Source of the DNA: Bacillota bacterium
Lineage (GTDB): Bacteria; Bacillota; Clostridia; Oscillospirales; Oscillospiraceae
Assembly: GCA_021768085.1 (NCBI GenBank)
Contig: JAETOJ010000005.1
Location: forward strand, 1-64,000
Reading direction: 5' to 3'
Length of the DNA stretch: 64,000 nt
Shown here: positions 9,622 to 12,881 of the stretch, piece after piece
How the letters are laid out: each line of letters begins with the position of its first letter
Position numbering within the stretch: the stretch's first letter is position 1
Notes under the pieces: generated by a model
Databases searched by the model: none
What the model was told of the DNA's origin: nothing
The model's input: only the letters and a program-made list of their open reading frames with translations
Made by a program: the position numbers and the translations under genes

Positions 9622-11253
<1,632 letters not shown>

Positions 11254-11273
11254 TTACCTCCAAATATTATTCA

Positions 11274-11324
11274 ACAATGGCGAGAATGTCGTTCTGCCGA
11301 ACGATGTTGTACTTCTCGCCGTCC
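11274..11324. repeat. Duplicated copy of the groES 3' end (51-bp direct repeat, copy 1)
   Basis: Bases 11274-11324 are identical to 11478-11528, the last 51 bases of groES before its final codon. On the minus strand this copy reads on into GTT GAA TAA and then the groEL ribosome-binding site, so it looks like the original groES end. It has no upstream coding sequence and cannot encode groES. Confidence 0.95.
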
Positions 11325-11477
11325 TCCCCACGAAACTTCGTTTCGCGGGGCCCCCGCGGGATTTCATGTGCGGCTGCCGGAAGTGAATTCCGTCAGCCTC
11401 CGGTGCTTACGCACCGCCCCATCTTCGATGGGGCCCCAGGTGGACGGCTCCCGGCTTACGGGATTCAGCGTCACTCG
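11325..11477. repeat. Hairpin-array insertion between groES and groEL
   Basis: This 153-bp segment lies between the two 51-bp repeats and is almost wholly inverted repeats: CCCCaCGAAAC/GTTTCGcGGGG (11326-11350), GGCTGcCGGAA/TTCCGtCAGCC (11372-11398), CGGTGC/GCACCG (11401-11416), CCCCATC/GATGGGG (11417-11433) and TCCCG/CGGGA (11449-11463). Loops are three to five bases. It contains no gene. It supplies the last groES codon and stop (GAG TGA). Confidence 0.85.
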
Positions 11478-11755
11478 ACAATGGCGAGAATGTCGTTCTG
11501 CCGAACGATGTTGTACTTCTCGCCGTCCACCTTGACCTCGGTGCCGGAATACTTGCTGGTGAGCACCTTGTCGCCGGGCTTCACGGTCATGACGACCTCC
11601 TTGCCGTCCACCATGCCACCGGGGCCTACGGCCACCACCTCGGCCATCTCGGGCTTCTCCTTGGCGTCGCCGGTGAGGATGATGCCGCCCTTGGTCTTTT
11701 CCTCGGCCTCCAGGGCCTTCAGGATCACACGGTCGGACAGGGGTTTGAGATTCAT
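11471..11755 (-). CDS. groES: Co-chaperonin GroES (10 kDa)
   Basis: The heptameric lid of the GroEL cage, 94 residues, full length. The N-terminal MNLKPLSDRVILKALEAEE, the mobile loop around KTKGGIILTGDAKEKP and the C-terminal NDILAIVE strand are all present. A GGAGG motif precedes the ATG, and a CIRCE operator lies about 50 bases upstream. The last 51 bases before the final codon are repeated in perfect identity 204 bases downstream. The annotated stop (TGA) belongs to the copy followed by the hairpin array, while the other copy keeps a TAA stop in front of groEL. The protein sequence is unaffected. Confidence 0.97.
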   Translation of the reverse strand: MNLKPLSDRVILKALEAEEKTKGGIILTGDAKEKPEMAEVVAVGPGGMVDGKEVVMTVKPGDKVLTSKYSGTEVKVDGEKYNIVRQNDILAIVE

Positions 11756-11805
11756 TGCTGGTTCCTCCTTAAATCTATAGTTTACGTATTAACAAGTCAG
11801 ATGGG

Positions 11806-11832
11806 TTAGCACTCTTTTATCTTGAGTGCCAA
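11806..11832 (-). promoter_or_regulatory. CIRCE operator of groESL
   Basis: TTAGCACTC, nine bases, GAGTGCCAA: one mismatch from the consensus CIRCE inverted repeat bound by HrcA. It lies 51-77 bases upstream of the groES start codon. HrcA is encoded in this window at 20217-21281. Confidence 0.95.
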
Positions 11833-11969
11833 CCACAAGTATGATAATACCCCCTCTGAGCAAAAAAATCAACCCCCATTTTGAAAAAAACAGGGGTTGA
11901 TTCCAAAAAATTCACCCTTCGTTCACAATCGGATGCCAGGAGTGCTAATTTCGGCAGGATCTGGAGCTC

Positions 11970-12881
11970 CTATCTCAACGGATCATAGCTCATTCCCTCG
12001 GGATAGAAGAAATTCACCTTCTTGTCCGACAGCCGAATCACCAGCTCCCTGGCCCGCACCGGCTCGCCGTCCACCACCGCCACCAGCTCCCGCTCCCCGC
12101 GGACGGTGACGCCCGCCCCTCGGCGGTGGTAGATGAGCTCGGGATAGTCCCGGTACTTCCCCTTGGCGTACTTTCCCACCAGCCGAAAAAAGGTGAACCG
12201 GCTCACCCTGGGGATCACCAGCGTCTCCAGCACGCCGTCGTCCGGCCTGTTGTCCCCCACGGGCATGAAGCCGCCGCCGTAGTACCGCCCGCTGCACACG
12301 CAGACGATGGTGGTCTCCCCCTCAAAGTGGAGGTCGCCGCAGTCCACCACCGTGGGCACGGAGATGGGCTTGAACAGCACGTTGGCCACCAGGGAGAAAA
12401 TGTAGGCCCCGATACCGCTCACCAGGGGCAGCACCTTGTAGCTGTCCTTATCCACGGCGATCCGGGCGTCCACCCCGGTGCACACGATGTCGATGCCCAG
12501 CAGGCCGTTGCAGTCGATGAGATCCATGGCCGCCTGGGGCCCCTGGGACAGGGCCCGCAGATCAGAGAACCGGGCCCGGTAGTCCGGGCCGAAGATCTTC
12601 AAAAAGTCGTTGCCCGTGCCGGTGGGCACGTTGGTGACGGCGGCGTTGGCAAAGCCCGCCGCACCGTTTACCACCTCGTTCAGCGTGCCGTCCCCGCCGC
12701 AGGCGTACAGGCGCACCGGCCCCCCGCTCTCCGCCGCCTCCCGGGCGATCCGGCGGGCGTCCCCCGTCTCACTGGTGTGGACGATCTCCGCGGGCACCTC
12801 CAGCGCCCGGATGTCCTCCTCCAGCCTCTGGGCGCCGCCCTTTTTCCCCGCCATGGGGTTAATGATAAATATATGCTTCAT
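11970..12881 (-). CDS. Diacylglycerol kinase/YegS-family lipid kinase
   Basis: A lipid kinase of about 303 residues. The N-terminal catalytic domain begins MKHIFIINPMAGKKGG and carries the GGDGTLNEVVNG nucleotide-binding motif at about residue 60-71. The C-terminal beta-sandwich domain includes the GRYYGGGFMPVG segment. Bacterial members phosphorylate diacylglycerol or related lipids at the inner membrane face to recycle them into phosphatidic acid. I place the start at the ATG at 12881. An alternative TTG at 12902 is less likely, and a purine-rich GAGAGAGGG serves as ribosome-binding site. The real lipid substrate is not determined. Confidence 0.85.
   Translation of the reverse strand: MKHIFIINPMAGKKGGAQRLEEDIRALEVPAEIVHTSETGDARRIAREAAESGGPVRLYACGGDGTLNEVVNGAAGFANAAVTNVPTGTGNDFLKIFGPDYRARFSDLRALSQGPQAAMDLIDCNGLLGIDIVCTGVDARIAVDKDSYKVLPLVSGIGAYIFSLVANVLFKPISVPTVVDCGDLHFEGETTIVCVCSGRYYGGGFMPVGDNRPDDGVLETLVIPRVSRFTFFRLVGKYAKGKYRDYPELIYHRRGAGVTVRGERELVAVVDGEPVRARELVIRLSDKKVNFFYPEGMSYDPLR

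Follow-up and report, generated by a model that had tools for sequence, protein, structure and literature searches.

A recurrent unit of gene-end copy, complementary guide and structured core at conserved genes of Oscillospiraceae, a candidate guided mobile element

The groES–groEL insert and its repeat family

The chaperonin genes groES and groEL of a Bacillota bacterium of the Oscillospiraceae (assembly GCA_021768085.1, contig JAETOJ010000005.1, positions 1 to 64,000; this 64,000-nt stretch is hereafter the window) are separated by an insert that carries an array of hairpins and a second copy of the groES end. The features at this locus lie on the minus strand of the window, which reads groES, insert, groEL; groES (11471–11755, co-chaperone GroES in NCBIfam) and the downstream groEL (9622–11247) were both called from their reading frames and NCBIfam matches. 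Two identical 51-bp stretches lie 204 bp apart: the first (11478–11528), continuous with the groES body, finishes four coding bases short of the TGA stop codon at 11471–11473, and the second (11274–11324) runs on to a stop at 11267–11269. On the gene strand, the groES-joined copy ends GTC GAG TGA and the second copy GTT GAA TAA, the GroES C-terminus (...AIVE-stop) being preserved in both with different stop codons. An earlier note on this DNA, made from the sequence alone, had described the perfect duplication, the two intact C-termini and five hairpins between the copies, named H0 to H4 here, and all three descriptions hold.

The same interval holds a feature that is absent from the earlier note. 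The point at which the second copy begins defines the junction J (between 11529 and 11528), and the 11-nt sequence spanning it (11522–11532, AGGT/GGACGGC, with J at the stroke) returns as its reverse complement, GCCGTCCACCT, at 11438–11448, which we call the guide. A short segment (11449–11470) that contains hairpin H0 (11449–11463) leads from the left stop codon to the guide, and directly after the guide begins a conserved structured core (11325–11437), recognized by covariance model, alignment and covariation. It consists of GGGG with H1 (11417–11437), H2 (11401–11416), H3 (11372–11398), H4 (11326–11350) and a final A; the covariance model (R1) matches 11324–11437, and guide and core together fold at −68.5 kcal/mol (z = −4.3 versus dinucleotide shuffles).

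The earlier note had proposed comparing the spacer among relatives, all of which might have shared it. This is not the case: the groES–groEL spacer was legible in 23 of 24 congeners, three of which (G003, G014, G023) carry the unit and 20 of which do not. Other small repeats occupy this spacer in the relatives at loci L024, L027, L030, L042, L044, L022 and L023, so that it seems to be a hot spot for short insertions. The insert may, as the earlier note asserted more firmly, alter the groES–groEL expression ratio or RNA processing.

We confirm that the 204-bp insert belongs to a repeat family of larger scope. A covariance model built from 28 aligned cores found matches (E ≤ 0.001) in 37 of 42 genomes of the genus, its own included, with 0 to at least 35 copies each; because no more than 77, 150 and 11 candidates were scored per genome in the genus, isolate/complete-genome and order searches, respectively, all core copy numbers are lower bounds. 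The window genome itself, in which the earlier note had suggested searching for the core, has at least seven matches at this threshold, three strong (E < 1e-15) and four weak (eight are listed at E ≤ 1), and the groES insert is one copy of the family; another core lies at lepA (L125), and a diverged one at the asnS 3′ end is accompanied by a second asnS-end copy. Eight genomes whose titles mark them as isolate or complete contain at least 11, 42, 55, 8, 66, 12, 9 and 26 cores, and in an even draw of 295 genomes across the order, 28 (from 15 of 148 genera) were positive at E ≤ 1e-5. A search with a DNA pattern for the first part of the core retrieved 45 stretches in GTDB genomes, with hosts titled Intestinimonas, Flavonifractor, Pseudoflavonifractor, Oscillospiraceae bacteria, Candidatus Enterenecus, 'uncultured Clostridium' and 'Firmicutes'.

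Most of these genomes are drafts or metagenome-assembled, and core-rich regions may break assemblies. Nevertheless, several pattern-search hosts are isolates, CE91-St43 is a complete genome, and 12 of 13 core loci in records titled as isolate or complete genome carry the duplication, which is therefore not an assembly error of the window genome alone; with identical unit anatomy in the isolates and the complete genome, an artefact is unlikely. Our literature search, whose coverage excluded most subscription papers, returned no description of this repeat family. Rfam 15 gave no family at the gathering threshold in four loci (the groES locus, L062, L106 and L097), the listed matches all being below threshold and none at the groES locus falling in the core on the gene strand.

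Duplicated gene ends and complementary guides at many targets

The typical unit runs from the gene body through J, the gene end, the guide and the structured core (~110–145 nt) to a second gene end. The earlier note covered the single groES–groEL locus; this general rule of gene end, guide, conserved core and gene end at many conserved genes lies beyond it. Anatomy was scored on 178 distinct cores taken from 187 of 199 rows, a non-random set made up of the pattern-search loci and the best-scoring genus matches; 168 of the cores had sufficient flank (155 loci). A direct repeat flanks the core in 127 of the 168 (score ≥ 40, with 6 of the 127 below 50), compared with 60 of 3000 cross-locus flank pairs, which rejects a chance repeat, and 7 of 168 reverse-complement controls. 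The repeats have a median length of 64 bp (36–113 bp, 5th–95th percentile) and a median identity of 93%, 11 of them being perfect. Hairpin-provoked template switching or slippage, acting with no element-specific enzyme, would explain why hairpins, direct repeats and inverted repeats occur together, but would leave unexplained why unrelated genes share one conserved core with constant ends, and we give it very little credence.

The guide recurs as well. Of the 168 cores, 108 (among them 97 of the 127 duplicated ones) are preceded by 22 bases that score ≥ 9 when aligned with the reverse complement of the upstream flank at the same locus; the cross-locus controls reach this score in 64 of 1500 cases and the same-strand controls in 10 of 168. 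Anchored near J, the guide reaches at least 7.5 of 9 pairs in 85 of 122 usable duplicated loci, and in 26 of 568 cases when the guide of another target is placed there instead. The paired stretch starts 2–6 nt left of J in 65 of the 85 anchored loci, most commonly at 5, and pairing, at 93% in position +4, has dropped to 39% by +10, although selection accounts in part for the high levels within the first nine positions; in 70 of the 85, the guide abuts the GGGG of the core with no gap. Mismatches in the paired window comprise 12 G-T and 9 A-C, and G-T wobble, considered as a sign of RNA pairing, gave no clear signal. Moreover, guide and target co-vary: 71 same-register host pairs, which share hosts and hence are non-independent, contain 65 target differences, at which pairing is kept in both hosts in 39 cases, in one in 21 and in neither in 5. 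Thirteen distinct compensated changes were found in seven targets, six of them in asnS.

Targets and sense were assigned by codon-position GC and NCBIfam. By NCBIfam, the targets are asnS, lepA (5′ and 3′), uvrB, recG, tsaD, eno, infB, tuf, aspS, gdhA, the malic enzyme gene, pta, lysA, miaA (5′), ileS, rpsI, uvrA, trmL, groES and phage terL, some matches being partial and below the whole-protein cut-off where only part of the gene was supplied. The groEL 3′ ends at two loci (L141, L226) are targets named by likeness to the window GroEL. For the target of L088, NCBIfam gave no name at 1e-20, and Pfam places it with the AP_endonuc_2 proteins; we presume it to be nfo, and the label typA for another target is likewise our assumption. 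At 89 of 99 loci called sense-coding (L095 being a trivial row), the left copy reaches an in-frame stop ahead of the core, and the C-terminus is usually encoded in the right copy too; the sense/antisense split is heuristic, and some of the 28 antisense calls (e.g. L025 and L075) are probably wrong. At the 5′ ends of lepA and miaA, the unit is antisense.

Inside recG, the unit is in frame and stop-free, with a 156-bp period and ~52 residues per unit; the whole unit or its first part occurs there in L051 (956–1338, in tandem), L052, L087 and L094.

Direct repeats of 36–113 bp would also suit an element resembling a miniature inverted-repeat transposable element (MITE), moved by an IS1634/IS1549-like transposase that makes very long, variable target duplications, with the guide being incidental. 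Direct repeats of 8 to 514 bp are reported for IS1549 and IS1634 (PMC2266710); a real insertion, the 51-bp duplication and the need for an unusual element, one of the origins named in the earlier note, are supported, but the note's statement that such a length is far beyond what transposases make is not supported in that form. We consider MITE-like movement quite unlikely, because it leaves the complementarity and co-variation of the guide without a role and because the core ends form no inverted repeat (the first 10 bases and the reverse complement of the last 10 share 1–5 matches in register in the 28 aligned cores). Also against it, the distance from the stop codon to the guide is near-constant across hosts within several targets (asnS 35–40, groES 21–24, infB −4 to −1), although it varies from 0 to 10 in tsaD; the near-constancy argues against a newly made random cut at the far end.

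The cores follow the gene and not the host. A tree of 95 cores with 22 target labels, built quickly on 140 columns and with many open forks, requires 35 target changes (least possible 21; shuffled mean 75.9; 0 of 200 shuffles as low) and 83 host changes (shuffled mean 80.3; 199 of 200 as low). The mean identity of the two gene-end copies is 0.92 within a host, compared with 0.78 for left copies between hosts and 0.82 for the gene body; in 172 of 190 pairs, the within-host copies are the more alike, groEL and trmL showing the opposite. We read this as units inherited or transferred whole, with copies homogenized by recombination between the direct repeats, the alternative being a fresh duplication on arrival. 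Such recombination best explains the tandem units together with the likeness of the gene-end copies, and could also remove a unit without a scar.

Many of these observations would fit a structured RNA resident at mRNA ends, passed on vertically and serving stability, termination or regulation, with its copies kept alike by recombination and its patchiness caused by loss. Core and guide track the target gene across hosts, the guide co-varies with the target of its host, the copies are alike within a host and the structure is strong. On this account, the hairpin between gene end and guide would be retained for its function in the mRNA. However, the guide is complementary to both sides of J, whose position is given solely by the start of the second copy, and an mRNA function would have no use for this. 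The antisense placement at the lepA and miaA 5′ ends, the in-frame placement within recG and a core number ranging from 0 to at least 35 within one genus also speak against a resident RNA, which we regard as unlikely.

A mobile element guided by base pairing

The interpretation that we favour, at somewhat better than even confidence, is that the unit is a gene-less, site-specific mobile element that finds its site through base pairing and leaves the target gene unharmed because it brings the gene end along. It builds on what was observed in these genomes, namely the anatomy and recurrence of the unit, the complementarity and co-variation of the guide, the clustering of cores by target and the patchy presence; from these, we infer that insertion is directed by the guide, with the unit moving as DNA and an enzyme acting in trans. 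The element would measure ~200–270 bp and consist of the target gene-end copy, the guide and the structured core. Its guide would pair with ~10–12 nt spanning J, where it would enter, and because the paired nucleotides span J, the target would be chosen by base pairing between element and target. Because the first part of the element copies the sequence beyond J, the interrupted gene would be restored at once, with a stop codon being supplied or, at 5′ ends, a start codon and ribosome site. The closest working model is the single-strand reaction of IS608, whose left-end topology the unit shares. Gene ends might be captured when a core lands after a gene and its guide then pairs inside that gene, so that the next excision would remove the gene end too and the circle could re-enter at the same J elsewhere.

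Several observations weigh against this interpretation. The duplication is absent from 41 of the 168 cores, the guide score of 9 is missed by 30 of the 127 duplicated cores and reached by only 11 of the 41 others, and some non-duplicated cores adjoin tRNA genes and have a left flank that is not derived from a target. The small excess of G-T over A-C mismatches does not favour RNA over DNA pairing. In the core tree, tuf cores are unclustered (500 of 500 shuffles as low), and those of eno, the malic enzyme gene and gdhA cluster weakly (18–29 of 500 shuffles). As the gene-end copies agree best within a host, arrival with a foreign gene end is not directly seen. The only movement caught is a difference in unit number between two phage contigs, L245 with one unit and L246 with two, whose sequences agree at 100% across 1533 bp and at 99.9% across 4380 bp; assembly collapse could also produce this difference. 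Finally, the genus genome G041 (at least 29 cores, 98% complete) lacks all four enzyme domains searched for, RVT_1, Y1_Tnp, Cas12f1-like_TNB (TnpB) and Transposase_20 (IS110).

These Pfam searches covered the 42 genus genomes at E ≤ 0.001. Another core-rich genome, G046 (at least 24 cores), yielded a single TnpB match, below the cut-off, for the four domains. PF01797 (Y1) is absent from 26 of the 42 genomes, including G041 and G046, and PF02371 (Transposase_20) from 19, including G041, G046 and G003; PF07282 (TnpB) exceeds the cut-off in 14 and has no match in G041, G045 and G003, IscB not having been searched for. PF00078 (RVT_1) is absent from G041, G020 and G046, with at least 29, 35 and 24 cores. 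By eye, the number of cores does not correspond to resident reverse transcriptase, Y1, TnpB or IS110. The enzyme may come from a plasmid or phage, be a host enzyme, belong to another family, or have since been lost.

The distribution of reverse transcriptases bears on a further alternative, an intron-like mobility at the RNA level, in which the guide would align both exons and a reverse transcriptase would copy the unit into DNA; the duplicated end may then derive from the mRNA of the gene, explaining copies that run to the terminator T-run. The guide is indeed contiguous across both sides of J, several gene-end copies, judged by eye, extend through a whole terminator-like T-run ahead of the guide (L062, L092, L099, L102, L111), and remnants of the 5′ part of the core follow the last copy. 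Yet RVT_1 is missing from three core-rich genomes, and intron covariance models found no match at E ≤ 10 in the window at 11000–12000 and none at E ≤ 0.5 in L062, L106 and L097, which makes this route improbable in our view.

Interpreted as a guided element, the unit shares features with several known systems. Genomic islands and phages integrate in gene ends and restore the target by an element-borne copy; they are kilobases long and encode an integrase, whereas the unit measures ~200–270 bp and has no gene, the gene-end copy that spares the target being common to both. In group I introns, one internal guide (P1/P10) aligns both exons, but the unit has a core of only ~110–145 nt, shows no Rfam match in the four loci and leaves its gene intact without splicing. 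We know of no counterpart of the guide in IS1549 and IS1634. These resemble the unit in their large, variable direct repeats (PMC2266710) and differ in being 1.5–2 kb insertion sequences with a transposase.

The IS200/IS605 group (IS608, ISDra2 and transposase-less relatives) offers the closest likeness, with hairpins at its ends and a guide-chosen cleavage site in the left flank. In IS608, a guide immediately 5′ of the foot of a hairpin pairs with the cleavage site in the left flank, and insertion takes place 3′ of that site (PMC5934647); the unit likewise has its guide 5′ of a hairpin base and paired with a retained left site. In contrast, the IS608-type guide has 4 nt on one side, compared with ~10–12 nt across both sides of J, and the unit places a gene-end copy of 36–113 bp between junction and guide and occurs in genomes with no Y1 domain (G041, G046). 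No target duplication is made by IS200/IS605 elements, and none is made by the unit if the gene-end copy is counted as part of the element; otherwise it amounts to 36–113 bp. The IS110/IS621 bridge RNA resembles the unit in that a non-coding part pairs with both target sides and co-varies with them (PMC11208160), but it has two guides to opposite strands in an internal loop, unlike the single contiguous guide to one strand seen here. Repetitive extragenic palindromes (REPs), with their mosaic arrays (BIMEs) and TnpA-REP, are also short, palindromic, non-coding and present in many copies. REPs are palindromes of 20–50 nt preceded by a conserved tetranucleotide, mostly GTAG (PMC8266576). The cores do not fit this pattern: they are longer, with several hairpins each, GTAG is present in one of the 28 aligned, what precedes the core varies from target to target, and a copy of the gene accompanies it. 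Fixed terminal inverted repeats of the IS1634 type are likewise missing from the 28 aligned cores.

Whether the unit represents a new class of guide-programmed, gene-less mobile DNA is a question that we answer with less than even confidence. Such a class would be defined by a core of 110–145 nt, a replaceable guide of 10–12 nt that picks out one precise site in a conserved gene, a carried gene end that renders insertion into essential genes harmless and a putative trans-acting recombinase, with guide and gene end being exchanged jointly for new targets. If true, a gene-less element would reach essential genes by base pairing and spare them by supplying the gene end, adding another case to the few systems in which nucleic-acid pairing sets the insertion site; the spare gene ends of these gut bacteria would then be accounted for, and the recombinase could be sought. 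Should the unit no longer move, a structured element at the ends of groES, infB, lepA, eno and other genes still bears on how their transcripts end.

Phage contigs and variant cores

In phage contigs, the unit occurs at the terL 3′ end, at 1297 in L245, at 1297 and 1596 in L246, at 1289 and 1562 in L243, and in L244. The two 5.5-kb IMG/VR contigs among them have a terminase large subunit by NCBIfam (L245) and similar reading frames (L244). Small single-stranded DNA phages were considered as carriers, but the four matching phage records are short unannotated scaffolds (two examined).

Non-duplicated cores lie beside called tRNA genes in L138, L171, L178, L180, L188, L196, L198, L201, L210 and L212; L099 and L185 belong to the same subset, with no tRNA gene called. 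In L099, L171, L178, L180 and L185, a left flank like AACAGTATAGATGCCAAGAGAACAT replaces the target-specific guide, and in the tRNA-side subset, another hairpin stands in place of GGGGnCCCC and H4. These cores are possibly parental, or a separate class. An autonomous version of ~2 kb between two cores (L171, L188, L196) is unsupported, as these cores adjoin tRNA genes.

A short-core variant has an extra 3′ module, GAGGAGGAGCAAGGGAG...GCGGACTTTGCGACGACG or similar, before the second copy (L092 3669–3756, L095, L108). Elsewhere, the guide and the first part of the core alone (GGGG to H1 or H2) follow the last or only gene-end copy (L057, L070, L073, L097, L111, L087, L098, L103), as if copying or insertion had ended early or a deletion had come later. 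Upstream of groES in the window, an inverted repeat, TTAGCACTC...GAGTGCCAA (11806–11832), looks like the CIRCE heat-shock operator.
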